Source: Heliocidaris erythrogramma (Eukaryota > Echinodermata > Echinoidea > Camarodonta > Echinometridae). From it: DNA of 64,000 nucleotides. The DNA lies in the NCBI GenBank assembly GCA_025617745.1, contig CM046866.1, positions 13,647,725 through 13,711,724 of the forward strand. The letters are read 5' to 3'. Numbering within the stretch: position 1 is the stretch's first letter; each line of letters begins with the position of its first letter. Position numbers and translations under genes: made by a program. Positions 1-62,896 of this stretch are shown in pieces. The notes under the pieces are model-generated. The model made no database searches, was not told the DNA's origin, and saw only the letters and a list, made by a program, of their open reading frames with translations.

Positions 1-191
1 CAATGGTGTCAGCGAGGTGATCAGGAATTTGGTTTGACAAAAGATTCTACAAGTGAACAACCTTGTATACAGTTTAAAGTTTTATTTTACAATGCTTAAT
101 AAAATCATGACACCCCTTTTTTTCCCAAAACATTAAATATGAATTATAGATTGATCTTTAATTAAATCATTAGTAGGTAGGAATCCAACAA

Positions 192-263
192 GGGGGTATA
201 GCTCAGTGGTAGAGCGCTCGCTTTGCATGCGAGAGGCCTCGGGTTCGATCCCCGATACCTCCA
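192..263 (+). tRNA. tRNA-Ala (TGC), array copy 1
   Basis: A 72-nt cloverleaf: a 7-bp acceptor stem with the G3:U70 pair that identifies tRNA-Ala, D arm, anticodon stem CTCGC/GCGAG with loop TTTGCAT (anticodon TGC, reads GCA/GCG), and a T arm with loop TTCGATC. The A box (TAGCTCAGTGG) and B box (GGTTCGATCCC) are intact. CCA is not encoded beyond the discriminator A. No run of four or more T lies close downstream (only TTTG), so Pol III termination here may be weaker than at sister copies. Confidence 0.95.
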
Positions 264-601
264 GTGTCCATTTGTTTAATTGTCTATATCATAGTGTTTT
301 GACAAAAGGAACAATTCAGACACTAATCTTTTTAAAGTCCAAAATGTTCAAATCAGTATATTCGATAATGCCCTCTTGTGTGTTTGATTTCAAATCAGTA
401 TATTCGACAATCCCCTTGTGTGTTTGATTTCAAGTCAGTATATTCGATAATGCCTTTGTGTGTTTAATTTTTTTTAAAAATCACATTGTAAATGATATGC
501 GCTCATAGAAAACTTTTTTCCTTAAAACTACTCATCATTTTGCTATAAATTCTTCGACTTGTAGATAATGAGTTATCCATATTATACAGTGCAGCCAACA
601 T

Positions 602-673
602 GGGGGTATAGCTCAGTGGTAGAGCGCTCGCTTTGCATGCGAGAGGCCTCGGGTTCGATCCCCGATACCTCCA
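602..673 (+). tRNA. tRNA-Ala (TGC), array copy 2
   Basis: Identical in sequence to copy 1, with anticodon TGC, the G3:U70 pair and intact A and B boxes. A T6 run starts 8 nt past the end and is a good Pol III terminator. The 5' flank ends GCAGCCAACAT, as for several other array members. Confidence 0.96.
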
Positions 674-1124
674 GTGTCCATTTTTTATTGTTAATTTCAT
701 AGTGTTGTGAAAAAAAGGAACAATTCAGACACTTTTTAAAGTTCAAAATGTTCAAATCAGTATATTCGATAATGCCCTTGTGTGTTTGATTTCAAATCAG
801 TATATTCGATAATGCCCTTGTGTGTTTGATTTAAAATCAGTATATTCGACAATGCCCTTGTGTGTTTGATTTCAAGTCAGTATATTCGATAATGCCCTCT
901 TGTGTGTTTGATTTCAAATCAGTATATTCGACAATCCCCTTCTGTGTTTGATTTCAAGTCAGTATATTCGATAATGCCTTTGTGTGTTTAATTTTTTTAA
1001 AAATCACATTGTAAATGATATGCGCTCATCGAAAACTTTTTTCCTTAAAACTAATCATCATTTTGCTATAAATTCTTCGAGTTGTAGATAATGAGTTATC
1101 CATATTTTACAGGGCAGCCAACAT

Positions 1125-1196
1125 GGGGGTATAGCTCAGTGGTAGAGCGCTCGCTTTTTATGCGAGAGGCCTCGGGTTCGATCCCCGATACCTCCA
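1125..1196 (+). tRNA. tRNA-Ala body with TTT (Lys) anticodon, copy 3
   Basis: All 72 positions match the array tRNA-Ala except two in the anticodon loop, which reads TTTTTAT instead of TTTGCAT, giving anticodon TTT (reads AAA/AAG, Lys). The acceptor stem with G3:U70, the T arm and both promoter boxes are unchanged, and a T6 terminator follows. Alanyl-tRNA synthetase recognises G3:U70 and does not read the anticodon, so charging with alanine is the expectation. It does not otherwise resemble a tRNA-Lys. Expression is unknown, and it could be a transcribed pseudogene. Confidence 0.85.
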
Positions 1197-1433
1197 GTGT
1201 CCATTTTTTATTGTTTATTTCATAGTGTTTTGAAAAACAAGGAACAATTCAGACACTTTTTAAAGTTCAAAATGTTCAAATCAGTATATTCGATAATGCC
1301 CTCGTGTGTTTGATTTTTTTAAAACCACATGATATGCGCTGATAGAAACTTTTTTTTCTTCAAACCACTCATCATTTTGCTATAAATTCTTCGACTTGTA
1401 GATAATGACTTATCCGGCTAAGGAAGCCAACAA

Positions 1434-1505
1434 GGGTGTATAGCTCAGTGGTAGAGCGCTCGCTTCGCATGCGAGAGGCCTCGGGTTCGATCCCCGATAC
1501 CTCCA
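1434..1505 (+). tRNA. tRNA-Ala (CGC), array copy 4
   Basis: The anticodon loop is TTCGCAT, giving anticodon CGC for alanine codon GCG. The acceptor 5' strand is GGGTGTA rather than GGGGGTA, so position 4 (T) faces C69: one mismatch in the stem, with G3:U70 kept. The A and B boxes are intact. A TTTT run lies 1-2 nt past the discriminator, unlike the T6 further out in the TGC copies. The same variant recurs at 3,355. Confidence 0.88.
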
Positions 1506-1795
1506 GCTTTTAGGCCTTCTTATTTTTACAATGTATGCCGAGATAATTTCTCTTAATGAAAACGAAAAAAGAAAAAAAAAAAAAGGAGAAGAGGAGATTG
1601 ATGGAGCAATGGTGTCAGCGAGGTGATCAGGAATTTGGTTTGACAAAAGATTCTACAAGTGAACAACCTTTTAAACAGTTTAAAGTTTTATTTTACAATG
1701 CTTAATAAAATCATGACGCCCCTTTTTTCCAAAACATTAACTTTGAATTATAGATTGATCTTCAATTAAATCATTAGTATATGAGAAGCCTACAA

Positions 1796-1867
1796 GGGGG
1801 TATAGCTCAGTGGTAGAGCGCTCGCTTTGCATGCGAGAGGCCTCGGGTTCGATCCCCGATACCTCCA
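1796..1867 (+). tRNA. tRNA-Ala (TGC), array copy 5
   Basis: Identical to the canonical array gene, with anticodon TGC, G3:U70, intact A and B boxes and a T6 run 8 nt downstream. The 5' flank (GAGAAGCCTACAA) is shared with the copy at 3,715, its counterpart in the next unit. Confidence 0.96.
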
Positions 1868-2197
1868 GTGTCCATTTTTTAATTGTTTATTTCATAGTGT
1901 TTTGAAAAAAGGAACAATTCAGACACTTTTTAAAGTTCAAAATGTTCAAATCAGTGTATTCGATAATGCCCTTGTGTGTTTGATTTCAAATCAGTATATT
2001 CGACAATGCCCTTGTGTGTTTGATTTCAAGTCAGTATATTCGATAATGCCTTTGTGTGTTTAATTTTTTTTAAAAATCACATTGTAAATGATATGCGCTC
2101 ATAGAAAACTTTTTTCCTTAAAACTACTCATCATTTTGCTATAAATTCTTCGACTTGTAGATAATGAGTTATCCATATTATACAGTGCAGCCAACAT

Positions 2198-2269
2198 GGG
2201 GGTATAGCTCAGTGGTAGAGCGCTCGCTTTGCATGCGAGAGGCCTCGGGTTCGATCCCCGATACCTCCA
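2198..2269 (+). tRNA. tRNA-Ala (TGC), array copy 6
   Basis: Canonical array sequence with anticodon TGC, intact internal promoter and a T6 terminator. It is the unit-2 counterpart of the copy at 602, and the spacers on both sides are nearly identical to those of that copy. Confidence 0.96.
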
Positions 2270-2720
2270 GTGTCCATTTTTTATTGTTAATTTCATAGTG
2301 TTGTGAAAAAAAGGAACAATTCAGACACTTTTTAAAGTTCAAAATGTTCAAATCAGTATATTCGATAATGCCCTTGTGTGTTTGATTTCAAATCAGTATA
2401 TTCGATAATGCCCTTGTGTGTTTGATTTAAAATCAGTATATTCGACAATGCCCTTGTGTGTTTGATTTCAAGTCAGTATATTCGATAATGCCCTCTTGTG
2501 TGTTTGATTTCAAATCAGTATATTCGACAATCCCCTTCTGTGTTTGATTTCAAGTCAGTATATTCGATAATGCCTTTGTGTGTTTAATTTTTTTAAAAAT
2601 CACATTGTAAATGATATGCGCTCATAGAAAACTTTTTTCCTTAAAACTACTCATCATTTTGCTATAAATTCTTCGACTTGTAGATAATGAGTTATCCATA
2701 TTATACAGTGCAGCCAACAT

Positions 2721-2791
2721 GGGGTATAGCTCAGTGGTAGAGCGCTCGCTTTGCATGCGAGAGGCCTCGGTTTCGATCCCCGATACCTCCA
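2721..2791 (+). tRNA. Degenerate tRNA-Ala (TGC), array copy 7
   Basis: One G is missing at the 5' end (GGGGTA instead of GGGGGTA), which shortens the acceptor stem. The T stem carries a G-to-T change (CGGTTTCGATC), which breaks a pair and alters the B box. The anticodon loop is still TTTGCAT. Unit 1 has no counterpart. It is probably a decaying copy with weak or no transcription. Confidence 0.75.
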
Positions 2792-3047
2792 GTGTCCATT
2801 TTTTATTGTTTATTTCATAGTGTTTTGAAAAAAGGAACATTTCACACATTTTTTTTAAATTTAAAATTCAATATGTTGAAATCAGTATATTCGATAATGC
2901 CTTTGTGTGTTTAATTTTTTTAAAAATCACATTGTAAATGATATGCGCTCATCGAAAACTTTTTTCCTTAAAACTAATCATCATTTTGCTATAAATTCTT
3001 CGAGTTGTAGATAATGAGTTATCCATATTTTACAGGGCAGCCAACAT

Positions 3048-3119
3048 GGGGGTATAGCTCAGTGGTAGAGCGCTCGCTTTTTATGCGAGAGGCCTCGGGT
3101 TCGATCCCCGATACCTCCA
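3048..3119 (+). tRNA. tRNA-Ala body with TTT (Lys) anticodon, copy 8
   Basis: Identical to the copy at 1,125, with anticodon loop TTTTTAT, the G3:U70 acceptor, intact A and B boxes and a T6 terminator. The upstream 100 bp, which has its own small differences from other spacers, is also shared with 1,125 and 4,441, so the variant spread together with its flank. Confidence 0.85.
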
Positions 3120-3354
3120 GTGTCCATTTTTTATTGTTTATTTCATAGTGTTTTGAAAAACAAGGAACAATTCAGACACTTTTAAAGTTCAAAATGTTCA
3201 AATCAGTATATTCGATAATGCCCTCGTGTGTTTGATTTTTTTAAAACCACATGATATGCGCTGATAGAAACTTTTTTTTCTTCAAACCACTCATCATTTT
3301 GCTATAAATTCTTCGACTTGTAGATAATGACTTATCGGCTAAGGAAGCCAACAA

Positions 3355-3426
3355 GGGTGTATAGCTCAGTGGTAGAGCGCTCGCTTCGCATGCGAGAGGC
3401 CTCGGGTTCGATCCCCGATACCTCCA
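3355..3426 (+). tRNA. tRNA-Ala (CGC), array copy 9
   Basis: Same as the copy at 1,434, with anticodon CGC, the T4/C69 mismatch in the acceptor stem and a TTTT run just after the gene. Two identical copies show that the mismatch predates the unit duplication. Confidence 0.88.
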
Positions 3427-3714
3427 GCTTTTAGGCCTTCTTATTTTTACAATGTATGCCGAGATAATTTCTCTTAATGAAAACGAAAAAAGAAAAAAAA
3501 AAAAAGGAGAAGAGGAGATTGATGGAGCAATGGTGTCAGCGAGGTGATCAGGAATTTGTTTTGACGAAAGGTTCTACAAGTGAACAATCTTAAACAGTTT
3601 AAAGTTTTATTTTACAATGCTTAATAAAATCATGACGCCCCTTTTTTCCAAAACATTAACTTTGAATTATAGATTGATCTTCAATTAAATCATTAGTATA
3701 TGAGAAGCCTACAA

Positions 3715-3786
3715 GGGGGTATAGCTCAGTGGTAGAGCGCTCGCTTTGCATGCGAGAGGCCTCGGGTTCGATCCCCGATACCTCCA
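3715..3786 (+). tRNA. tRNA-Ala (TGC), array copy 10
   Basis: Canonical array sequence with TGC anticodon, intact promoter boxes and a T6 terminator. It is the unit-3 counterpart of the copy at 1,796, including the flank with three 40-bp minisatellite units. Confidence 0.96.
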
Positions 3787-4116
3787 GTGTCCATTTTTTA
3801 ATTGTTTATTTCATAGTGTTTTGAAAAAAGGAACAATTCAGACACTTTTTAAAGTTCAAAATGTTCAAATCAGTGTATTCGATAATGCCCTTGTGTGTTT
3901 GATTTCAAATCAGTATATTCGACAATGCCCTTGTGTGTTTGATTTCAAGTCAGTATATTCGATAATGCCTTTGTGTGTTTAATTTTTTTTAAAAATCACA
4001 TTGTAAATGATATGCGCTCATAGAAACCTTTTTTCCTTAAAACTACTCATCATTTTGCTATAAATTCTTCGACTTGTAGATAATGAGTTATCCATATTAT
4101 ACAGTGCAGCCATCAT

Positions 4117-4188
4117 GGGGGTATAGCTCAGTGGTAGAGCGCTCGCTTTGCATGCGAGAGGCCTCGGGTTCGATCCCCGATATCTCCA
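4117..4188 (+). tRNA. tRNA-Ala (TGC), array copy 11
   Basis: The anticodon is TGC. The 3' acceptor strand is TATCTCC instead of TACCTCC, so pair 5:68 is G:U rather than G:C, while G3:U70 is kept. The downstream flank is ATTTAAAAAAATTG, so no T4 run is close. The copy at 4,763 shares both traits, so these two are recent duplicates. Confidence 0.92.
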
Positions 4189-4440
4189 GTGTCCATTTAA
4201 AAAAATTGTTTATATCATAGTGTTTTGACAAAAGGAACATTTCAGACATTTTCTTAAAATTCAAAATGTTCAAATCAGTATATTCGATAATGCCTTTGTG
4301 TGTTTAATTTTTTTAAAAATCACATTGTAAATGATATGCGCTCATCGAAAACTTTTTTCCTTAAAACTAATCATCATTTTGCTATAAATTCTTCGAGTTG
4401 TAGATAATGAGTTATCCATATTTTACAGGGCAGCCAACAT

Positions 4441-4512
4441 GGGGGTATAGCTCAGTGGTAGAGCGCTCGCTTTTTATGCGAGAGGCCTCGGGTTCGATCC
4501 CCGATACCTCCA
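4441..4512 (+). tRNA. tRNA-Ala body with TTT (Lys) anticodon, copy 12
   Basis: Third copy of the anticodon-switched gene, identical to those at 1,125 and 3,048 over 72 nt. The loop is TTTTTAT, G3:U70 is kept, the A and B boxes are intact and a T6 terminator follows. It lies between two copies (4,117 and 4,763) that share a G5:U68 variant. Confidence 0.85.
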
Positions 4513-4762
4513 GTGTCCATTTTTTATTGTTTATTTCATAGTGTTTTGAAAAAATGGAACAATTCAAACACTTTTTTAAAGTTCAAAATGTTAAAATCAG
4601 TATATTCGATAATGCCTTTGTGTGTTTGATTTTTTTAAAAATCACATTGTAAATGATATGCGCTCATAGAAAACTTTTTTTCTTAAAACTACTCATCATT
4701 TTGCTATAAATTCTTCGACATGTAGATAATGACTTATCCATATTTTACAGGGCAGCCAACAT

Positions 4763-4834
4763 GGGGGTATAGCTCAGTGGTAGAGCGCTCGCTTTGCATG
4801 CGAGAGGCCTCGGGTTCGATCCCCGATATCTCCA
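4763..4834 (+). tRNA. tRNA-Ala (TGC), array copy 13
   Basis: TGC anticodon, with the same G5:U68 acceptor pair and the same downstream flank lacking T4 as the copy at 4,117. Promoter boxes are intact. Confidence 0.92.
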
Positions 4835-5074
4835 GTGTCCATTTAAAAAAATTGTTTATATCATAGTGTTTTGACAAAAGGAACATTTCAGACATTTTCT
4901 TAAAATTCAAAATGTTCAAATCAGTATATTCGATAATGCCCTTGTGTGTTTGATTTTTTAAAAATCACATTGTAAATGATTTGCGTTTATAGAAACTTTT
5001 TTTTTCTTCAAACTGCTCATCATTTTGCTATAAATTCTTCTACATGTACTTGTAGATAATGACTTAGCCAACAA

Positions 5075-5146
5075 GGGGGTATAGCTCAGTGGTAGAGCGC
5101 TCGCTTTGCATGCGAGAGGCCTCGGGTTCGATCCCCGGTACCTCCA
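5075..5146 (+). tRNA. tRNA-Ala (TGC), array copy 14
   Basis: TGC anticodon. The T stem ends CCCGG rather than CCCGA, making its outer pair T:G, a tolerable wobble. G3:U70 and the promoter boxes are kept. The terminator is T5. The spacers on both sides are more diverged than elsewhere, as expected near an array edge. Confidence 0.92.
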
Positions 5147-5364
5147 GCATTCATTTTTATTGTTTATTTCATAGTGTTTGGAAAAAGGAACAATTCAGAC
5201 ACTTGTTTAAAGTTCAATAATGCCCTTGTGTGTTTGATTTTGTTAAAATCACATTGTAAATGATATGCGCTTATAGAGATTCTTTTTTCTCCAAACTACT
5301 CACCGTTCTGCTATAAATTCTGCGACTCGTAGATAATGCCTTACCCATATAGGGGAGCCAAGAA

Positions 5365-5436
5365 GGGGGTATAGCTCAGTGGTAGAGCGCTCGCTTTGCA
5401 TGCGAGAGGCCTCGGGTTCGATCACCGATACCTGCA
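5365..5436 (+). tRNA. Degenerate tRNA-Ala (TGC), last array copy
   Basis: The anticodon loop is intact (TTTGCAT), but the T stem has C-to-A at the otherwise invariant position 61 (ATCACCGA), which breaks the G53:C61 pair and the B box. The acceptor 3' strand is TACCTGC, losing pair 2:71. It is probably a pseudogene at the end of the array. A T5 run follows. Confidence 0.75.
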
Positions 5437-8871: not shown

Positions 8872-10437
8872 TCACGTTATTGGGGAAACAAAACTTAAAT
8901 CAGTCCTCCTTAAATCGGCAACCTGCTTGACCTGCGTGTACCCCGCCACCTCCATGACTTCACCGCAATACTTCTGTATCTCCTTAACGACGGGAAATGC
9001 CACGTGATGACGCCAAGCCTGCGCATTGGCCGAAGAGTTTCTATGCGTGGAATAGATGTCATGTGCGTCACTCAAGGTGCTTTCACGCGTATTCTCCTTG
9101 ATCCAGTTATACACATTGGCGGGGACATCACCCATTCCCGCGAATTTGTAGAGAGTCCTTGTCCACCCTGCCGGATCGGTGGCAATGTCCTCATACCTTA
9201 CCCTGAGGTACCTATCCCGGAGGAGTCCCGGGTTCTTTTGTACAAAGTTAAAGTTGTGTCTCATCCTACGGCAGATGTAGGCTGCGTCGTGACTGAGACT
9301 CTTGCCCAGGGACAATGCTTTGGCTTTTCCCGGATGCTCCTTTGATCTAGAGGACAGTGTCCCTCGAGGGTCGCGCAAGAGGTGGATGATCTTCAGGTTG
9401 ATGCCTTTGTCTTGCAGCAACGGTCGCAAGGACTCTACGCTGTATAAACGAATGAGTTTCACCACTTTGTGTGGATATACGTTACAGAGACTGGTCATTG
9501 TTTCGCCTTCAAGAGGCCCGCATCTCTTGACGGCACTTGATTTCATTTTATTGTAGTCCATATTCGTCACACACAGGGGCGGTGAACAAAGCACCTTACT
9601 GGACATTCTGTGCAGCGTCTCGTTGTTGTAAAAGTCGGTGAGGTAAGGAGTTCTGTCGAAACGACATTTCAGTACATTTCCGAGGAGAGAGGAAGCGTTT
9701 GGATAAATATTTTTCTTAATTTCAAGAAGTTTCAAGGGTTCAAAATGGAAGAAGACCCATGGGTTCTGGTTGAAGATTTGGCCCAAGAAACTAGACCCTG
9801 ATCGTCTTTGAGTGACGATCAGGAGATGAACTGGTAGGACCCTGCTCGTCGCCTCCTCTGTCCCAGGGGCTTCTCCACTCTGTGACTTCGCAGACTCATC
9901 ATTGTATTTGAGAGTCTGGAACTGAGACATTTTGTAATCCAGGACGGCCATAGTTCGGTCATTCTCTGCACCTTTTTTTTCCTGGGGCTTCTCGACGGAA
10001 CTTTTACTAGGTTTTGATTTCGCGGTGTCTTTAACAGCCTCAGTCTTGGTCACATTGTTCCCTTCCAGTGAAGCTGGTGCTATCCCATCCTTCACCACTA
10101 CCTCATGCGTCTTGTCTTCGACTTTACGATCACCGCCGTGATCATCCACTTCGTCGTCATCCATGAACTCGCCGTCGTCCCAGAAGATCGGCACACGATA
10201 TTTTTCCTTCTCGCTCTTACTCACTTCCTTGACGGCCTTTGGTACTATCCTGGTATCTGCAACAGGCGCCGACTTCAGGACACTGTTCTGTAGTAGCCGC
10301 CTCGTCTCCCCGTCGTTGCGCGTCAGGTAGTCGGTGAACGCAGCGCGCATGTCACGTGGTGGGAAGACAACGGAGCATGCGCAGATGAACGTGAGAGCCG
10401 CGAAGAAGTAGCAGCATCTCCTTCGTCTAGGCATCAT
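8872..10437 (-). CDS. Golgi carbohydrate (Gal/GlcNAc) 6-O-sulfotransferase, CHST1/3-like
   Basis: Encodes 521 residues and is predicted to move sulfate from PAPS to the 6-OH of galactose or N-acetylhexosamine on glycans in the Golgi lumen. A basic start (MMPRRRR) precedes a signal-anchor segment at residues 8-25, as in type II Golgi enzymes. The 5'-phosphosulfate loop is RRSGSSF near 211-217 and the 3'-phosphate site is LLRDPRGTLSSR near 353-364, both typical of the GlcNAc/Gal/GalNAc 6-O-sulfotransferase family. N-glycosylation sequons (NVT, NASS, NETL, NSSA) are present. Family members are usually near 400-530 residues; here an acidic, Lys-rich stem of about 175 residues separates the anchor from the catalytic domain. 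Start choice: ATG at 10,437 has A at -3. Another in-frame ATG lies at 10,455, just inside a splice acceptor (pyrimidine tract then TAG, exon from 10,457). The frame stays open upstream to 10,614, but that part looks intronic. The catalytic part is uninterrupted. Exact donor and acceptor sugar cannot be told. Confidence 0.9.
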   Translation of the reverse strand: MMPRRRRCCYFFAALTFICACSVVFPPRDMRAAFTDYLTRNDGETRRLLQNSVLKSAPVADTRIVPKAVKEVSKSEKEKYRVPIFWDDGEFMDDDEVDDHGGDRKVEDKTHEVVVKDGIAPASLEGNNVTKTEAVKDTAKSKPSKSSVEKPQEKKGAENDRTMAVLDYKMSQFQTLKYNDESAKSQSGEAPGTEEATSRVLPVHLLIVTQRRSGSSFLGQIFNQNPWVFFHFEPLKLLEIKKNIYPNASSLLGNVLKCRFDRTPYLTDFYNNETLHRMSSKVLCSPPLCVTNMDYNKMKSSAVKRCGPLEGETMTSLCNVYPHKVVKLIRLYSVESLRPLLQDKGINLKIIHLLRDPRGTLSSRSKEHPGKAKALSLGKSLSHDAAYICRRMRHNFNFVQKNPGLLRDRYLRVRYEDIATDPAGWTRTLYKFAGMGDVPANVYNWIKENTRESTLSDAHDIYSTHRNSSANAQAWRHHVAFPVVKEIQKYCGEVMEVAGYTQVKQVADLRRTDLSFVSPIT

Positions 10438-10455
10438 TGTGACACGGTCTAGCAT

Positions 10456-10485
10456 ACCTAGAAAGCATAAAAGATAAAGAACAAT
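10456..10485 (-). promoter_or_regulatory. Splice acceptor before the sulfotransferase coding exon
   Basis: On the minus strand, TTTATCTTTTATGCTTTCTAG is a pyrimidine-rich tract ending in AG at 10,459-10,458. The exon would begin with GT and then ATG at 10,455. This implies at least one upstream, probably 5'-UTR, exon that was not identified. Confidence 0.6.
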
Positions 10486-10559
10486 CATTAAAGTTGACGA
10501 ATGATATTGAAATTCCAGAATTCCCCCTATCAGCATGGTCTGAAGAAATAGTGTCACAA

Positions 10560-11020
10560 ACGGTGTGGTCAAACAGTGGATTTGGAACACTTTCACTGAG
10601 TTCACGATGTACAAATATTTTTGTTCACACTGTTTTCACACTGTGGCCATAGAGCTAATCATATTGCACCACATACCAGTCACAGAGAGGGTAATAAACA
10701 CAAAGTATAGTATTAAAAATGTAAATGCACCTTGTGTGACAGAGTTACACACTGTGAAACCAGTTTCACCACAGAGAGAACCATAATTTGAATGCACAAC
10801 ACTGTTAACACATAATGGATTCTGAACATGTTCATAGTGTAAAAATATGAGAACATAATATGTGACACGCTGTGACATACCGTGACAATGTGACCACAGG
10901 GAGAACCACAAAATGTACGCGGAACAGTGTGAAAACAGAATAGATTTTAACTATCTTCAGTGCAAAAAAAGTGAGCATACTGTGTGACACAGTAATGTGT
11001 CACAGCATCGGTGGTCACAG
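10560..11020. repeat. Degenerate CACTGTG-rich repeat, about three copies
   Basis: Blocks that pair an ATGGATTCTGAACATGTTCA-like part with a TGTGACAC/CACTGTG-rich part recur near 10,573, 10,814 and 10,942. Short inverted forms such as TGTGACACAG/TGTGTCACAG are frequent inside. It lies upstream of, or in the intron of, the sulfotransferase gene on the same stretch. No family is recognised. Confidence 0.55.
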
Positions 11021-17472: not shown

Positions 17473-19091
17473 CGCTCCCCCGGACGCCCTTTGTTTTCAG
17501 ACGAGACCAATTCAAGACGATTTATTACTCCGATAGCGGAAGCAGGAGGGAAATGCGAGATAATAAGAACAATAATAAGAACGATACGAAGGTAGACAAG
17601 AAAGAATAAACGCTGACAGGTCCCTGAGCCGCGGCTTCCGCTTCAAATTAACAGCAAAGACTATAAACTATTATATCATTACAGTAGTCACACTTTTGGT
17701 AATAGCCCTAGGCTAGGGCATTTGGGGAAAGAAAAAAAAAGTGTTCAGATTCGCGGACGCTTCTGCAGGAGTAACGGGTGACGAAGATATTCCATTTACT
17801 TGCAATCGTATTTCATATTCAGTATTTCATTTCATTTCCACAATAACAGCAAATAAATTTACAAAGGCCTGTCAGTTTACAAAAATCATTATGAGCATAG
17901 AAAAACCAACCATCAAGAATGATACTAAATCTGGCACAGAAATTCGGTTTTAAAACAAAATGAAATTTACGTTATAAGTGGTAAGTAAATAAATACTAGC
18001 TGTATTGTGGGGGAAGCCTTGGAAAGCAATGCTTGTAATTTAGTATTACAGTATTTCAGGTTGCGTAACAATATGTTGCTATGACGGCCAAACCTTGAGA
18101 TAGCTTCAGCATGTTCGGGGGCATCTTTAGTAATCACGTGGCAAGGACCGACATGGAAGTGGGGTGTGTTCAATAACAGAAAAATTAGCACAGTTCCCAA
18201 GACCCACACTGCGTTATGTTATGCTCCATTCATGTAAAGACTCACCCAATCACATTTTCATTGAAAGGGGTGGCGGGGCGTTTCCCTTAACCACCAGATT
18301 CTAGAACTGCGTCCTTCAGCATGAACTAACATGATGTGTGACAGGGTTGTTTTTGTTGGGAGGCGGCGGGGGGGGGGGGGGGGGGGTTTAGATCGAAATA
18401 CCAGAGTGTCTAAATACCAGATAGAGTCCGGATCCGGAAATATTACACGCCAACTTGTCTTCTTGTTCTATGGGGCGTAATATCGCACAAAGGACACCTT
18501 TAGCGCTATTATGGTTTGAATGAAAGAACAGCAGGGATGTTACCTATGAAGTGTCACTCTGTGTGGTGTGTTTTGAAATGTTTTGTCTAGCTCTCTGATG
18601 GATGTGGTTAATTTGGTCATTTGAATTGAAGTCTCTTATGGTTCATGCCCTTGCACATAATTATAAGGCCACGCTATTTTGTGATGCTTTTTATTTCTTA
18701 ATTCCGGCGTTTAAACGATCCATCCATCAGAATATACACTCTCATTTTCTCTCCCCTCTTTCTCTTTCTCTTCCTCTCTCTCTCTCGCCCTCCCTCTCTC
18801 TCTCTCTTTCTCTATATCTATATATCCCCATCCCTGTCTTGTCGACAGTAATATATTTATTTGTCATCCAGTCTCCTTAAAAACTCACTATCGCCCTTTT
18901 GCCGCAAAGACTGTCTTCACAAAACACCTTAAGAAATGGCAAAAGTTTTAATACTCAAACCCGAATAAAGATTATCACGTACAAGGGAGATAATACCTGA
19001 ATACGGTATGAGTGTAGCCCCTATAGGGGTCTGGGGTCGGCTCAAAGTCCAGTGCTTGCGTTGCGTCATGTAGGAATGATAACTTCTTGGG
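17473..19091. other. Noncoding stretch with CT microsatellite
   Basis: No gene seen. A G-run lies at 18,366-18,387 and a CT-rich microsatellite at 18,748-18,830. The region ends where the LINE at 19.1 kb begins. Confidence 0.5.
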
Positions 19092-20714
19092 ATGACTTGG
19101 TGGTTCAAAGGCTCGTACTGCTTCAGGTACAAGACTTGTACTCATAAAGATGTTGAGAAACTCATCATGCATTTGAGTAAAAAGTCATGCCCTCTTGATC
19201 CAATGCCAACCCATTTACTTATTAAATGTACGGACATATTACTTCCTACACTTACAAAATTGATCAACCTTTCACTTGGTAATGGTCAGTTCCCTTCCAG
19301 TTGGAAGGTAGCCTTGGTTCGACCGCTGTTGAAAAAGCAAGGTCTTGAGCTTAGTCCCAACAACTTGAGGCCAGTTAATAACCTACAGTACATATCTAAA
19401 TTAGTTGAAGGTGCTGCCACACAACAGATCCAGCAACATCTCGGTCACAATTTGCTTTTGCCTTCTTGGCAGTCTGCATACAGGCAATTTCACAGCACCG
19501 AAACAGCTCTACTTAAAATTAAGAATGATCTCTTAATGGCCATGGACAGACAGAAAGTTACATTGTTGATCTTGCTTGACTTAAGTGCAGCATTTGATAC
19601 TATTGTTCATGATGTTTTATTAGACACATTACGTACTTTTTTTGGTATTGATGGAACAGTTCTTGATTGGATCGAATCTTATCTTACTGATAGGCAGCAA
19701 AAAATACGAATTGATGATGTTGATTCAAATATTTTTAAGGTATCCCATGGTGTACCCCAAGGCTCACGCCTGGGCCCTTTACTTTTCACTTTATACACTA
19801 GCAAACTTATCAAAGACATTCAAGAAAATTTTCCTATCGTCTCTTGTCATTGCTACGCAGATGACACTCAGTTATACATTTCTTTCAATCCTAATCACGA
19901 AATGCATGAAAAAATATCAGTTTTTGAGGCATGTATTAAGTATGTACGCTCATGGATGCTTCAAAATAAACTTAAGCTAAACGAAAGTAAGACAGAATTT
20001 ATGATAATTGGAACATCCCGACAAATATCAAAACTTGATGTCACTAGCATAAGAGTCGGTAATTCAGTTGTAAATTCATCCAATACTGTAAGAAATTTGG
20101 GTGTTTGGTTTGATACCACTCTGAACATGGAGACACATATATCCAAAGTGTGTAAAGCAGCTTTCTATATGCTCTACAATCTTCGTCACATTCGAAAATA
20201 TCTAGACCAGAAAAGTGCAGAAACTTTAGTGCATGCTTATGTTATTAGTAAGATTGACTACTGCAATGGATTACTGCTTGGTTTACCAGAGTCACATACA
20301 ATGAAGCTTCAACGTATACAGAATGCCTGCGCTAGACTAGTTTGTAACTCCTCAAAATTTTGCCACATTACTCCTCTTTTAAAAACACTTCATTGGTTGC
20401 CAGTGAGGCAGCGTATTGCTTTTAAAATTCTCTTGATTGTGTTTAAGGCCTTAAATGGTCAATCTCCGAATTACATTTCTGAATTACTTACTTTAAAATC
20501 AAATCCACATTCATATAATCTCAGGAGTACAAATGACACATTGCTTCTAAAAATGCCAACTTACAGGACTAAGGTGACAATGGGAGATCGAGCTTTTTCT
20601 TGCGCAGCACCTAAGATTTGGAATAATCTTCCTTTTAACATTAGGAATTCCCATTCAGTGTGCTCTTTTAAGACTAAGTTAAAAACCCACCTGTTTGTAG
20701 AAGCTTTTCGGTAG
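19092..20714 (+). CDS. LINE reverse transcriptase (L2/CR1-like), C-terminal part
   Basis: The 540-residue uninterrupted frame from an ATG covers the RT domain. SCPLDPMPT near 32-40 is the typical entry to the RT. The first catalytic Asp lies in LLDLSAAFDT near 161-170, GVPQGS is at 220-225 and YADD is at 255-258. The C-terminal LHWLPVRQR block and the PKIWNNLP motif follow, as in L2/CR1 relatives. The endonuclease domain is lost to 5' truncation, so this copy cannot mobilise itself even though the RT is whole. The first ~20 residues may come from flanking DNA rather than the element. Confidence 0.88.
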   Translation: MTWWFKGSYCFRYKTCTHKDVEKLIMHLSKKSCPLDPMPTHLLIKCTDILLPTLTKLINLSLGNGQFPSSWKVALVRPLLKKQGLELSPNNLRPVNNLQYISKLVEGAATQQIQQHLGHNLLLPSWQSAYRQFHSTETALLKIKNDLLMAMDRQKVTLLILLDLSAAFDTIVHDVLLDTLRTFFGIDGTVLDWIESYLTDRQQKIRIDDVDSNIFKVSHGVPQGSRLGPLLFTLYTSKLIKDIQENFPIVSCHCYADDTQLYISFNPNHEMHEKISVFEACIKYVRSWMLQNKLKLNESKTEFMIIGTSRQISKLDVTSIRVGNSVVNSSNTVRNLGVWFDTTLNMETHISKVCKAAFYMLYNLRHIRKYLDQKSAETLVHAYVISKIDYCNGLLLGLPESHTMKLQRIQNACARLVCNSSKFCHITPLLKTLHWLPVRQRIAFKILLIVFKALNGQSPNYISELLTLKSNPHSYNLRSTNDTLLLKMPTYRTKVTMGDRAFSCAAPKIWNNLPFNIRNSHSVCSFKTKLKTHLFVEAFR

Positions 20715-38783: not shown

Positions 38784-38855
38784 GGGGGTATAGCTCAGTG
38801 GTAGAGCGCTCGCTTTGCATGCGAGAGGCCTCGGGTTCGATCCCCGATACCTCCA
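38784..38855 (+). tRNA. Solitary tRNA-Ala (TGC)
   Basis: Identical over 72 nt to the canonical array gene, with anticodon TGC, G3:U70 and intact A and B boxes. It lies 33 kb from the array and shares none of its spacers. Its only flank likeness is a few bases upstream (CAAGGGGG). A T9 run starts 7 nt downstream, a stronger Pol III terminator than at any array copy, so this is a strong candidate for an active gene. Confidence 0.96.
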
Positions 38856-42536: not shown

Positions 42537-43147
42537 ATGATAACCACAATTGTTACAACAGATTTTAGTAAGGCGTTCGACAGGATAAACCATAACATAG
42601 CCATTCTAAAACTGCTCCAGATGAACGCCCGTCCGAGTGCTGTTGCATGGGTAGCAGACTTTCTCACTAATCGGCAACAGAGCGTGAAGTATCGAACGTC
42701 CTTCTCTGATTGGCTAAAAGTTTCTTCAGGGGCTCCGCAAGGGACAAGACTTGGCCCCATCGTTTTCCTGACAATCATCAATGAAGCGTGCCACGACCCC
42801 AACCCCCTTCTTATTGGAAGTACGTTGATGACCTCACAATGCTAGAGTGTAGAAAATCACCATCTCCAGCCAATATCCAGTCAAGCGTGAGCGAGCTGGA
42901 AGAATGGACTATCACTCATAACATGAAACTGAACCCTAAAAAGTGTTCTGTGATGACTGTAACTTTCATGCGCAATCCTCCACCACCGACTGTTATCTCA
43001 ATTGATGGACATGAAATTAGTCAAACAGATTGTGTAAAATTACTTGGTGTTTACATCCAAAATGATCTGAAATGGACTTTCCATGTGAATGAAATGGTAA
43101 AGAAGGCAAACATGAGGCCTGCATATTATGCTGAGAGTTCTAACTAA
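42537..43147 (+). pseudogene. LINE B reverse transcriptase fragment
   Basis: About 200 codons of RT in two overlapping frames (42,537-42,845 and 42,788-43,147). The catalytic Asp of motif A (TTDFSKAFD) and the YVDD box (a variant of YADD) are visible, but the shift of frame between GAPQGT and YVDD prevents a single product. RT motifs before A are lost to the 5' truncation. Confidence 0.75.
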
Positions 43148-46223: not shown

Positions 46224-46392
46224 ATGGGACGGGGAAAGTTCTGGGGTACCCTGTTGTTATCCGCTGTGGTAGCTTGCCTGATGGTGCCAGCGGCGAGCCA
46301 AAAAACTACCGGTTGGCGCAAAGCATCGCGGCCAGGAGCGTGGAGGGATTCAATGTTGACTCGTGGGGTGAATGGAGGCACACCATGCGCTG
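46224..46392 (+). CDS. Possible first coding exon of a secreted protein
   Basis: An ATG in strong context (A at -3, G at +4) opens a 56-codon segment. The segment begins with a good signal peptide: MGRGKFWG, then a hydrophobic run (LLLSAVVACLMV), then PAAS with likely cleavage before QKTTGW. The rest (WRKASRPGAWRD, then TRGVNGGTPCAG) is not recognised. The exon would end at CTG|GTAAGT with the donor at 46,393, in phase 1. No downstream exon was found in this window, and the product is unknown. The alternative is a chance frame; the signal peptide, start context and donor together argue against that. Confidence 0.45.
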
Positions 46393-48785
46393 GTAAGTGG
46401 TAGAATGGTTACGTGGTAGAACGATAAGGTGGTAGAACGGTATGGTGGCAGAGTGGTAAAGTGGTAGATTGGTATGGTGGTAGAATAGTATGGTGGTAGA
46501 ATGGTACAGTGGTAGAATGGTATGGTGGTAGAATGGTATGGTGGTAGGATGGTATGGTGGTAGAATGGTAAGGTGGTAGAATGGTAAAGTATCGAAAACA
46601 AGCTGCTGAAAACTGCTTATCCAATAATAGCGAGCCAATGGAGTAAAAATGGAGTCAAAAGGGGCCTGAGCTTTCGATCCTAGCAGAATCTTCGTCAGAG
46701 GCAAAAAGACGAACATAAAGACCAAGACAAGTATATATATAGACTACAGGCACAAAACAGATTACATGTAACAGAAACTGTAAGGGAGGAGCTGTGGACA
46801 CAAAACAATGGGAACAAAAGGGGAGTGTTGGGAGTCAGAACCCATGAGTCAAGAATGGTAAAGTGGTAGAATGGTATGGTGGTAGACTGGTATGGTGGTA
46901 GCCTGGTATGGTGGTAGAATGGTAAGGTGGTAGAATCGTAAAATGATAGAATGGCATGGCGGTTGACTGGTATTGTGGAAGACTGGTATGTTGGTAGAAT
47001 GGTAAGGTGGTAGACTGGTATGGTGGTAGAATGGTAAGGTGGTAGAATGGTAAAGTGGTAGAAAGGTATGGTGGTAGACTGGTATGGTGGTAGACTGGTA
47101 TGGAGGTAGAATGGTATGTGGTAGAATGGTATGTGGTAGAATGGTATGGTGGTAGACTGGTATGGTGGTAGACTGGTATGGAGGTAGAATGGTATGTGGT
47201 AGAATGGTATGTGGTAGAATGGTAGTTGTGGTAGTAGGTAGTGGTGGTAGAATGGTAGTGGTGGTAGAATAATTTAGTGGATATACACTATTGGTCGTAG
47301 AATGGTAGTGGTGGTAGAATGCTATATGCTGGCGCAATTATGTTCGTATAGTGGTAGCATAATACGAATGTGCTACGATGGTTAAATAATTATCATGTGT
47401 TTGATTATACTTATATACCTGTAAACATTGCTATACGAGAATAAATAATGTGCCAAAAGCAATACAAATCTTCCTTGAATACTTTACGGAAAAGGCAAAT
47501 ATGTTTACACTTCAATAGGAATAAGCTTCTCGTTGTCATACGAATGGAGCTAACGGTCGTTGGATATGTTGATAACTAAGGAGCAGTCCAACCAGTCGCC
47601 TGTTTCCATGGTACGTTGGAAGAATGGTAGTGTAGAATGACAAAGTGGTAGAATGGTAGTGGTGGTAGAATGAAAGTGGTGGTAGAATGGTAAAGTGGTA
47701 GAATGGTATGGTGGTAGAATGGTATGGTGGTAGAATGAAAGTGGTGGTAGAAAGGTGAAATGTTAGAATGGCAGTAGTGGTAAATTGGTATGTGGTAGCC
47801 TGATAAGGTGGTAGAATGGTATGGTCGTAAAATGGTAAGGTGGTAGACTGGTATGGTGGTAGAATGGTATGATGGTAGAACGGTATGGTGGTAGAATGGT
47901 AAAGTGGTAGAATGTTAGTGGTGGTAGAATGGCATGGTGATCAATTAGTAAGGCTGTAGAGTTGTGTAGTGGTAGAAAGATAAGGTGGTAGAATGGCAGT
48001 GGTGGTAGAATGGTAAGGCGGTAGAATGGTATGGTGGTAAAGTGGTAAGGTGGTAGAATGGTATGGTGGTAGAATGACAGTTGTGGTAGTAAGGTGCTGG
48101 TGGTAGAATGGTAGTGGTGTTAGTAAGAGTGGTGGTAGAATGGTAAAGTGGTAGAATGTTAGTGGTGGTAGAATGGCATGGTGATCGATTAGTAAGGCTG
48201 TAGATTTGTGTAGTGGTAGAAAGATAAGGTGGTAGAATGGCAGTGGTGGTAGAATGGTAAGGCGGTAGAATGGTATGGTGGTAAAGTGGTAGGGTGGTAG
48301 AATGGTATGGTGGTAGAATGACAGTTGTGGTAGTAAGGTGCTGGTGGTAGAATGGTAGTGGTGTTAGTAAGAGTGGTGGTAGAATGGTAAGGCGGTAGAA
48401 TGGTATGGTGGTAAAGTGGTAAGGTGGTAGAATGACAGTTGTGGTAGTAAGGTAGTGGTGGTAGAATGGTAGTGGTGGTAGTAAGAGTGGTGGTAGAATG
48501 GTGAGGCGGTAGAATTGTATGGTGGTAAAATGGTAAGGTGGTAGAATGGTAAGGCGGTAGAATGGTAAGGTGGTGAATGGTATGGTGGTATAATGGTAAG
48601 GTGGTAGAATGGTATGGCGGTAAAATGGTAAGCTGGTAGAATGATATGGTGGTAAAATGACAGTTGTGGTAGTAAGGTAGTGGTGGTAGAATGGTAGTGG
48701 TGGTAGTAAGGTAGTGGTGGTAGAATGATTTAATTGTAGTATAGTATTGGTGGTAGAATGGTAGCGGTGGTAGAATGCTATGCTG
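46393..48785. repeat. 16-bp minisatellite in three blocks
   Basis: Tandem units near GTAGAATGGTATGGTG (variants with GTAGACTGG, AAGG, GTAGTGG) run at 46,393-46,590, 46,853-47,330 and 47,625-48,785. Blocks 1 and 2 are split by an inserted foreign piece (46,591-46,852), and blocks 2 and 3 by a ~290-bp non-repeat segment. Within block 3 a ~240-bp higher-order period is seen (GATCAATTAGTAAGGCTGTAG at 47,939 and its near-copy at 48,181). The units lack stops on the minus strand, which gives long Tyr/His/Ser/Thr/Pro frames of up to 289 codons. These have no independent sign of being genes. Confidence 0.9.
46591..46852 (-). mobile_element. Insertion inside the minisatellite, Penelope-like remnant with hammerhead-like motif
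   Basis: Non-repeat sequence between two minisatellite blocks. On the minus strand, 46,702-46,663 reads GCCT, CTGACGA, a hairpin (GATTC against GGATC), GAAAGCTC, AGGC. GCCT/AGGC can form helix I, CTGACGA and GAAA are the core boxes, and A-GC-U could be a very short helix III before the cleavage-site C. That matches the minimal type-I hammerheads of Penelope-like elements, except for one extra A after CTGACGA. No RT is present. Confidence 0.5.
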
Positions 48786-49030
48786 GCGCAATGATGATCG
48801 TATAGTGGTGGCATAATATGAATGTTCTACGATGGGTGAAACATTATTATCTGTTTGAATTTACTTATATGTTCACATAAATGTGAAATACAATGTTCCA
48901 AAAGCGACGCAAATCCTGTTTACTTTACGGAAAAGGCAAATATTTTTACACTTCAGTCATGTCAATAGGAATAAGGTTCTCGTTTTCATAACGACCATGT
49001 CGAATGGAACGAACGGTTGTTGGATATAAA
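47321..49030. repeat. Segmental duplication of the minisatellite tail (~1,456 bp period)
   Basis: The non-repeat segment after block 2 (47,321-47,570: TGGCGCAATTATG, TACTTTACGGAAAAGGCAAA, AATAGGAATAAG) recurs after block 3 (48,777-49,030) in the same order with modest divergence. The last array units before each copy also match. So a unit of minisatellite plus its right flank was duplicated in tandem. Confidence 0.8.
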
Positions 49031-57272: not shown

Positions 57273-59250
57273 ATGCCGAAACAAAAAATAAAAACCAACT
57301 ATAAGAAAACACCTAAGCTCCCATGGATTTCTAAATCCATACTACGCTCAATTAATTGGAGGAAAAATCAAAGGAAAAGTATACATCCTATAGAAACACC
57401 ATTGACTCAAATCATTCGACTTGAAAAAAGAAAATGCTTCGTAAATCGTTTGGAAATGTTCAAACACGATATGCAAAATACCTGGAAAATTATTAAACAA
57501 GCGATCAATTTGACGGATAAAAGATCTGAAATAAACCATGAAATTGTTGAAGATTCCAAAGATATAGCGAATATCTTTAATACTTACTTTTCTTCAATCG
57601 GCAACAATCTCTCTAAATATATTCCCCCATCAAACAGAAATTATAGTGATTTTTGAGGCCCTGCTAATCCAAATTCTATTTTTCTCTTTCCTACGAACTG
57701 GCAAGAAGTCATTAATATTGTTTCCAACTTACAGAATAAAAAAAGTTCCGGTTTTGATGGAATTAATAACGTAATGTTGAAAGCCATTAGTCCTTTTATT
57801 GTAGATCCTTTGGTCCATATTTTTAATTTATCATTGATGCATGGTAAATTCCCCAATTCCATGAAACTAGCAAAAATTATTCCCTTATTCAAAAAAGGTG
57901 ACAAACTTGAAGTAGGTAATTATCGGCAAATCTCGTTTCTATCTTCTTTTTCCAAAATTTTGGAAAAGATAGTGTTTACTCGAATGATTTCTTTCCTTAA
58001 AAAATATGATATCCTCTCTAATTTCCAGTTTGGTTTTAGGGAGAAACATAGTACTGTTCATGCTTTGATGTCTTTTGTTGAGAAAGTTGCCCATTCAATT
58101 GACTCGTCTTCTCACACAGTAGGTATATTCCTGGACTTCTCCAAGGCCTTTGATACGATAAATCATGATATTCTACTTTATAAACTTGCTCATATTGGTG
58201 TCCGTGGAAAGGAGTGGTCCTTGGAGTGGTTCAGGAGCTACCTTTCTAACAGAAAACATTTTGTTTTCTTAAACGAGCAAGCATCAGATTTTAAAGATAT
58301 TTCTTGTGGCGTCCCTCAAGGAAGCCTGTTAGGCCCATTATTGTTTATACTTTATATAAATGATTTTCATAAATCATCCGATTCCCTGTCATTCATCTTA
58401 TTTGCAGATGACACCAATTTATTATTTTCTGACAGTGATCCAAATGTTCTTGTCGATGTAATCAATAGAGAGCTGCGTAACATATTAGAATGGATAAGGG
58501 CTAATAAATTATCATTGAATCATCTGAAGACGAATTATATATTGTTTAGTAACTCCTTAGCATCATTACCTACTGATATTGTTTTTGACAATATCCCTCT
58601 TGAGCAAGTCTCTCAAACCAAATTCTTAGGTGTTTTCGTTGACAGTAAACTTTCCTGGAAAATCCACATCGAAAATATTTGTAAAATTATCTCTCGCAAT
58701 ATCGGCATCATTAACAGACTTAAATCACACCTTCCTCAAGCATCTTTACTTATGCTTTACTCATCTCTTATTTTACCATATTTAAACTATGGTCTTTTGG
58801 TATTTGGGAAACACTCATCAAACACTGCTGGAAAGGGTTTTACTACTACAAAAGAAAGTCATTCGTATAATTTGTAATGCTCCTATACGTGCCCATACGG
58901 ATCCTCTTTTCATTGAACATAACATCTTAAAAATTAAAGATTTGTACTTATTTCATCTTGGTGAATTTATGTATAAATACAATTGTGGTACTCTACCATG
59001 TGCGTTTCACGATATGTTTCTAAAAAATCGTACAATTCACAAATACACCAGACAGTCGGATGAATTTCATTTACCATTTTTTAAAACATTTTCTGCACAA
59101 AACACATTTATTTTTGAAGGTTCTAAACTTTGGAATACTTTGCACCATAATTTGAAAAAATCCTCTTCACTCACAATCTTTAAGAGAAATCTGAAGAAAT
59201 TTTTAATTGGCTCCTTACAAAACCTAACTCCCTTTGTCAGTTGTTTGTAG
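57273..59250 (+). pseudogene. LINE reverse transcriptase with C-terminal region
   Basis: Frame 57,273-58,877 with one stop at 57,656 covers a linker (NTYFSSIGNNL), SSGFDGINN, IIPLFKKGD, then motif A in FLDFSKAFDTINH (58,130-58,170), GVPQGSLLGPLLF (58,309-58,347) and FADDTN (58,402-58,420), then KFLGVFVDSKLSW. Near 58,800 the frame changes, and LLLQKKVIRIICNAP, TRQSDEFHLP and GSKLWNTL continue to 59,250. Catalytic residues are present. It belongs with CR1/Jockey-group RTs; the exact clade needs a tree. Confidence 0.85.
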
Positions 59251-62088: not shown

Positions 62089-62896
62089 TACTGACCCACA
62101 ATAAAAAGTACCCACGACTTTATAATGGTATATCATATTTATATTGACAGACACAGAATGACAATGAACCAGGGTGGAAAGATTGACCTTTTATTGAAAC
62201 ATTTCACTAATTTCGGGAAGACAATGATGTCTCTTGTCAGCGCGCATTACAGCGCAGAACACAACAAGTTGAAAAATGAAAGTCACAGATCACCCCTGGT
62301 GTTTGTGGATGGCAACATCACTGCACAGCGCTATGTGGACGATATCCTGAGACCACACCTGGTGCCATTCCTGCAGAACAGCCGAGGACTGCGCATCTTT
62401 CAGCATGATAATGCCCGACCTCATGCTGCACGGCTAACCACTGCATTCCTGAGGGATGAGAACATTAACACCATGGAGTGGCCGGCGATGTCCCCTGACC
62501 TCAATCCCATTGAGCATCTGTGGGATGAGCTTGGGAGGCGCATTGCTGGCAGGGTCAGGACTCGTGCAAAACTGATCCAGACTTTGCAAGATGAATGAAA
62601 CGGGATTCCACAAGATTTCATTCAAAGACTGGTGCGCGTATGCGTCGCAGATGCAATGCCTGTCTGCAAACAAATGGTGGCTACACACACTATTGATCTG
62701 TGACTTTCATTTTTCAACTTGTTGTGTTCTGCGCTGTAATGCGCGCTGACAAGAGACATCATTGTCTTCCGAAATTAGTGAAATGTTTCAATAAAAGGTC
62801 AATCTTTCCACCCTGGTTCATTGTCATTCTGTGTCTGTCAATATAAATATGATATACCATTATAAAGTCGTGGGTACTTTTTATTGTGGGTCAGTA
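62089..62896 (+). mobile_element. Tc1-like DNA transposon with ~202-bp inverted repeats, internally deleted
   Basis: The ends TACTGACCCACAATAAAAAG and its inverse start long terminal inverted repeats, 62,089-62,291 (203 bp) and 62,695-62,896 (202 bp), identical but for one G. Flanking TA on both sides (62,087-62,088 and 62,897-62,898) is the target duplication. The interior encodes only the last part of a Tc1-family transposase. The near-identity of the repeats points to very recent insertion. Confidence 0.92.
62280..62703 (+). pseudogene. Tc1 transposase, C-terminal remnant
   Basis: Reads SPLVFVDGNITAQRY, PHLVPFLQ, FQHDNARPHAA and SPDLNPIEHLWDELGRR. The second catalytic Asp (in HDNARPH) and the Glu (in NPIEHLW) are 34 residues apart, the DD34E spacing of Tc1 elements. 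The N-terminal DNA-binding domain and the region of the first Asp are absent, replaced directly by the left inverted repeat. A TGA at 62,596-62,598 stands where relatives have a Trp (DEWNGIPQ), after which the frame runs open to TGA at 62,701. It cannot encode an active enzyme. Confidence 0.88.

Follow-up and report, generated by a model that had tools for sequence, protein, structure and literature searches.

What does a tRNA gene produce when it keeps the body of one amino acid's tRNA and acquires the anticodon of another? The question is raised by three genes at the left end of a 64,000-nt window from the echinoid Heliocidaris erythrogramma (C14:13647725-13711724; positions below are those of the window unless a contig is named), which combine a tRNA-Ala body with the lysine anticodon TTT and which the initial annotation took to predict alanine at AAA/AAG codons. 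We consider it likely that these TTT genes go back to one tandem mutation, were amplified passively, terminate their own transcription and are mostly silent. The genes and their signals are the following.

1125..1196 (+): tRNA-Ala body with TTT anticodon, copy 1, which is array copy 111 of 0-123 (ARAGORN, Rfam, array catalogue)
3048..3119 (+): tRNA-Ala body with TTT anticodon, copy 2, array copy 116 (ARAGORN, Rfam, array catalogue)
4441..4512 (+): tRNA-Ala body with TTT anticodon, copy 3, array copy 120 (ARAGORN, Rfam, array catalogue)
1132..1142 (+): presumed box A of copy 1, TAGCTCAGTGG, identical in copies 2 and 3 (sequence)
1175..1185 (+): presumed box B of copy 1, GGTTCGATCCC, identical in copies 2 and 3 (sequence)
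1204..1209, 3127-3132 and 4520-4525 (+): T6 terminators downstream of copies 1, 2 and 3, starting 8 nt after the gene (sequence)

In the window ARAGORN called 13 tRNA-Ala and three tRNA-Lys(TTT) genes, 16 in total and each on the + strand; the limits of the latter three are 1124-1197, 3047-3120 and 4440-4513. Each TTT gene scores 72.9 bits with the Rfam tRNA model, the top score among the 16, and differs from the local tRNA-Ala(TGC) consensus solely by GC to TT at gene nt 34-35 (tRNA positions 35-36). Length (72 nt), the G3:U70 pair, box A and box B are those of the consensus, the two RNA polymerase III (Pol III) boxes being assigned by the general box consensus; the discriminator is A73. The initial annotation was thus right about the three genes, their single anticodon change, the intact G3:U70 and promoter boxes and the T6 that follows. 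At least three exact matches to the TTT gene occur in the 1.06-Gb host assembly, all within the window; assembly-wide search counts for repeats are lower bounds, and the separate array catalogue likewise gives three TTT genes. The marks of a tRNA pseudogene, a degenerate body or lost promoter boxes, are absent (72.9 bits, boxes intact), and those of an alloacceptor shift, an intact family body bearing the anticodon of another amino acid, are present.

The initial annotation overlooked a second consequence of the same substitution. As the alanine body has T at gene nt 31-33, the new TT yields TTTTT at nt 31-35, within the transcribed body.

1155..1159 (+): internal T5 of copy 1, created by GC to TT between box A and box B, a predicted premature Pol III terminator (sequence, literature)
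3078..3082 (+): internal T5 of copy 2 (sequence)
4471..4475 (+): internal T5 of copy 3 (sequence)

The TTT genes belong to a tandem array of 124 tRNA-Ala copies, in which intragenic T runs reach 5 in the three TTT copies only, 4 in a single further copy (copy 100, through C30T) and no more than 3 in the other 120; internal T5 is therefore found in 3/3 TTT genes against 0/121 of the remaining copies. Downstream of the gene, T5 is the first run of four or more T in 39 of the 124 copies. By a criterion of our own, a gene giving a full-length product has no terminator-length T run inside it, and the TTT genes contain one (T5, nt 31-35). Pol III is reported to terminate at four or more T in vertebrates (PMC8244042) and, in its human form in vitro, at more than three T (PMC8531034), with predicted terminator efficiencies of ~0, ~75 and ~99% for 3T, 4T and 5T (PMC12675287). 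We regard the internal T5 as a likely strong attenuator of Pol III, rather than a proven block, and since it arises from the very mutation that creates the TTT anticodon, full-length tRNA from these genes is probably scarce. A nearby hairpin in the nascent RNA reinforces weak T-tracts in yeast (PMC9278858), and a D-arm hairpin is predicted before the T5. Hairpin-assisted termination was nevertheless set aside as adding little, as 22 of 200 shuffled sequences fold at least as well.

Genuine tRNA-Lys genes served as a control. Those with a TTT anticodon on contig C12 were located with a general tRNA-Lys pattern, and six were read; the local tRNA-Lys sequence gave 143 counted matches genome-wide at up to three mismatches. 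A catalogue made from 70 kb of C12 delimited a second tandem array (C12:18857084-18917644) with 164 tRNA-Lys copies, namely 163 TTT and one degenerate CTT. C32 is present in all 164, an internal T4 in 163 and an internal T5 in none, and the T5 form of the Lys anticodon arm, which has at least 140 matches in the genome at up to one mismatch, has no exact match. Because of C32, native lysine tRNAs with UUU stop at T4, whereas the alanine body with T32 reaches T5. The C32 pattern is consistent with terminator avoidance but is not proof of it, as loop structure may also conserve this base. In the same array, the discriminator is mostly G73; a T discriminator occurs in five copies, and seven have T in place of A in the anticodon loop, at gene nt 38.

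Several observations weigh against strong termination at the internal T5. The TTT tRNA body is otherwise perfect and scores best among the window's tRNAs, and the D-arm hairpin before the T5 folds identically in the TGC gene. The 163 lysine array genes with an internal T4 are presumably expressed, which implies a measure of tolerance for T runs inside the gene. Downstream, 126 of the 164 tRNA-Lys copies have no run of five or more T within 60 nt, the first downstream run is T4 in 125, and 97 of the 127 copies whose 3' arm is intact have their first T≥5 at a distance of ~125-175 nt; together with the internal T4, these runs mean that terminator rules in H. erythrogramma are not simple. The published figures call for similar caution, since the ~99% quoted for 5T is a prediction whose cited source concerns type 3 promoters (PMC12675287), human Pol III in vitro also reads through T5 and T7 (PMC8531034), and T5 is only the minimal length for termination in yeast (PMC9278858).

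The array that holds the TTT genes, catalogued from the window joined with 50 kb to its left, bears on how the variant arose.

1..5436 (+): right end of the 124-copy tRNA-Ala tandem array (C14:13607125-13653160), 15 copies of which lie in the window (array catalogue)
953..2388 (+): duplicated block with TTT copy 1; its counterpart at 2876-4310, with TTT copy 2, matches it at 97.9% identity over 1440 columns (alignment)
2467..3427 (+): duplicated block with TTT copy 2; its counterpart at 3864-4835, with TTT copy 3, matches it at 92.9% identity over 982 columns (alignment)

The array spans 46 kb with all 124 genes on one strand (the box A arm has 118 exact matches on the + strand of the joined stretch and 0 on the reverse), and its anticodons are 98 TGC, 23 CGC and 3 TTT. 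The consensus body, wobble base aside, occurs in 77 copies. Pairwise comparison of the 120 copies of 72 nt (the four of other length being excluded) gives a mean difference of 0.016 for the body, wobble base omitted, against 0.25 for the 60 bp upstream and 0.28 for the 40 bp downstream. This roughly 15-fold lower divergence of the bodies indicates that those of the array as a whole are under constraint or homogenisation, which is a statement about the array and not about the TTT copies.

Near its right edge the array holds the TTT copies (111, 116 and 120 of 0-123), which do not differ from one another in the gene, in the 166 bp before it or in the 41 bp after it, so that at least 207 flanking bases are shared. 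Five upstream alleles separate them from units 110, 114 and 115; within the whole set of 124, three of these alleles are confined to the TTT copies, and the other two recur in only seven further copies. Identical flanks, shared flank alleles and the longer duplicated blocks point to one origin followed by duplication, and thereby favour recent duplication, which the initial annotation had itself offered as an alternative. Its remark that the variant was copied three times without further change in the body holds as far as the bodies are identical, but carries no sign of constraint, since the sequence 166 bp upstream and 41 bp downstream is equally identical. A first pass had suggested otherwise, as TTT copies differed by 5 to 19 substitutions in ~195 aligned upstream bases and by none in the body; a finer alignment places these upstream differences more than 166 bp away, beside a 40-bp minisatellite, and the constraint argument was dropped. 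With the near flanks unchanged, the unchanged body of the TTT copies says nothing about function.

The ancestral anticodon probably lay on the TGC/CGC side, to judge from 121 of the 124 array copies, and the single-step intermediates TTC and TGT are found in none of the 124. One mutational event is the simplest origin of GC to TT: its other-strand equivalent, GC to AA, belongs to a pair of tandem changes found in excess in humans and ascribed to polymerase zeta (PMC5147774), a pattern whose application to the present species would be an extrapolation. Nor does a change at these sites go beyond the mutation load of the array, because 25 distinct substitutions across the other 69 sites of lightly changed copies (0.36 per site) lead to a crude expectation of 0.72 at the two anticodon sites, where one double substitution is observed.

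Other features of the array were recorded alongside. The CGC copies adjoining TTT genes (1434-1505 and 3355-3426) carry G4T, which is missing from the other 21 of the 23 CGC copies; as U4 then faces C69 in a mispaired acceptor stem, both are probably poor tRNAs. The 40-bp minisatellite lies between array genes in 3 to 6 units (347-470, 751-994, 1945-2066, 2347-2590 and 3864-3985). A single consensus tRNA-Ala(TGC), followed by a T10 run, stands 33 kb away from the array at 38784-38855, and a further copy lies on C9. A literature search on tandem tRNA-Ala arrays, judged by titles, found nothing direct.

The genes themselves, their array, the shared flanks that mark a single origin and the T5 within each TTT gene are observed directly, and from them the following course of events can be proposed. 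A single tandem GC to TT would have struck one tRNA-Ala copy near the right edge of the array, and duplication of higher-order repeat blocks would have brought the number to three. With U32-U33 before the anticodon, a change to TTT would necessarily build T5 between the promoter boxes, so that Pol III would mostly stop in the anticodon loop and release a short transcript (leader plus ~35 nt) that could be neither processed nor charged. Any read-through RNA would be split between alanyl-tRNA synthetase (AlaRS), drawn by G3:U70, and lysyl-tRNA synthetase (LysRS), drawn by UUU, and would be diluted by the genuine tRNA-Lys pool. Near-silence would then be the reason that the variant is tolerated.

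What such read-through RNA would carry is the point on which the other explanations turn. AlaRS is known to depend on G3:U70 and not on the anticodon, and the initial annotation concluded that the genes keep alanine identity. The AlaRS determinant is indeed retained, but identity is not established by it, since UUU transplanted into human tRNA-Asp or initiator tRNA-Met suffices for lysylation by LysRS (PMC9976931). Two competing determinants may thus be present on the same molecule, and by analogy with the human enzyme it may be charged with lysine or with both amino acids. A full-length product would also meet the output of tRNA-Lys genes, with 163 TTT copies in a single array facing the three TTT genes.

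The strongest of the competing explanations, though an unlikely one, is that read-through RNA is mainly lysine-charged by LysRS and reads lysine codons as lysine, and a Drosophila Asn-to-Lys shift through the anticodon alone has been discussed in like terms (PMC3923123). Against such a switch, AlaRS would still be recruited by G3:U70, the TTT genes have A73 where genuine tRNA-Lys mostly has G73, and supply would still be limited by the internal T5.

Distinctly improbable is a full-length tRNA-Ala(UUU), alanine-charged through G3:U70, that places alanine at AAA/AAG, perhaps at particular stages. Intact G3:U70 and promoter boxes, the T6 downstream and the 72.9 bits all agree with it. It has to contend with the internal T5, the acceptance of UUU-bearing tRNAs by human LysRS (PMC9976931), a ratio of 3 genes to 163 TTT copies in one tRNA-Lys array and the lack of evidence for constraint on the TTT copies, and nev-tRNAs, for their part, mature without detectable mistranslation (PMC4300185). 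Lys-to-Ala mistranslation by the TTT genes, the central prediction of the initial annotation, is therefore unlikely in the face of the internal T5, LysRS competition and the 163 tRNA-Lys TTT copies. Similar doubt attaches to a broader proposal, in which natural self-terminating genes make a functional 5' tRNA-Ala half, or trace read-through Ala-tRNA(UUU) is used in some stage.

The 5' half in particular seems very improbable. Translation can be influenced by 5' tRNA-Ala halves that carry a G-run, and the T5 is placed exactly in the anticodon loop, where termination would yield a regulatory half of this kind, beginning with oligo-G and ending in a U tail; however, no constraint is detectable, only three recent copies were found, in one genome, and the truncated RNA would have no full acceptor stem and its leader would probably stay on. 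Assembly or sequencing error is the least credible of all, because, difficult as homogeneous tandem arrays are to assemble, homopolymer errors are usually indels and not a double substitution, the same GC to TT stands in three different higher-order contexts, and three flank alleles are unique to the TTT copies.

Passive amplification of a self-terminating variant thus remains our preferred account, and the nearest known relatives of the TTT genes can be considered in that light. Mistranslating tRNA-Ala anticodon variants are reportedly covered by Cozma (2023) and Tennakoon (2025). Natural and engineered variants of this kind share with the TTT genes a tRNA-Ala body, G3:U70 and a foreign anticodon (PMC11415595); unlike them, the TTT genes have an internal T5, were copied within an array and are known from genes alone. 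In CUG-Ala yeasts, tRNA-Ala(CAG) is likewise a duplicated tRNA-Ala gene with a foreign anticodon, but there the clade reads the codon as alanine, whereas here 163 tRNA-Lys(TTT) array genes persist (PMC11415595).

The TTT genes belong among the alloacceptor anticodon shifts, in which a recognisable tRNA gene has an anticodon mutated to that of another amino acid (PMC3923123). Such shifts are described as favoured by high gene redundancy (PMC3923123, Rogers and Griffiths-Jones 2014), and four two-base anticodon changes have been reported, three of them alloacceptor (PMC3923123). That study relied on synteny between related species, whereas the TTT genes were assessed within one genome; the string 'terminat' occurs 0 times in its main text, and in the TTT genes the shift itself builds T5. 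No description of an anticodon shift that builds a terminator was found in listings of open-licence papers, most of them judged by the listing alone, older subscription work on yeast suppressor tRNA genes lying outside the search.

The comparison with the nev-tRNAs of nematodes, made in the initial annotation, applies in that anticodon and acylation identity may disagree in both, and fails as a precedent for mistranslation, since nev-tRNAs are mature but show no detectable mistranslation (PMC4300185). Nev-tRNAs have a long variable arm (V-arm), undergo leucylation in vitro, mature with CCA and are said to show high conservation across nematodes (PMC4300185); the 72-nt TTT genes, by contrast, have a short variable loop and one recent origin.

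The remainder of the window contains a satellite of 16-bp units, partly with a 244-bp period (46391-48786), and a 587-codon uninterrupted open frame with a sulfotransferase domain (PF00685) at 8872-10635 (-). Reverse transcriptase matches and a DDE_3 transposase match lie at 19083-20714, 42785-43147, 57657-58877 and 62095-62598 (+), that at 42785 being below Pfam's cut-off.

Since AlaRS takes no account of the anticodon, anticodon-shifted tRNA-Ala genes offer an easy path to mistranslation. The TTT genes point to a possible built-in brake on this route, easily missed when identity elements alone are checked, in that UUU on a tRNA with U32-U33 makes a terminator-length T5. The rule suggested is that tRNAs gaining UUU would need C32 for good expression, which fits C32 in 164/164 lysine array copies and the 0 exact matches to the T5 arm. 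The locus also illustrates the value of viewing a whole array, where three of 124 copies with identical flanks speak for duplication and not selection. An anticodon mutation that also plants a Pol III terminator-like run may accordingly be a candidate mechanism by which such variants are tolerated.

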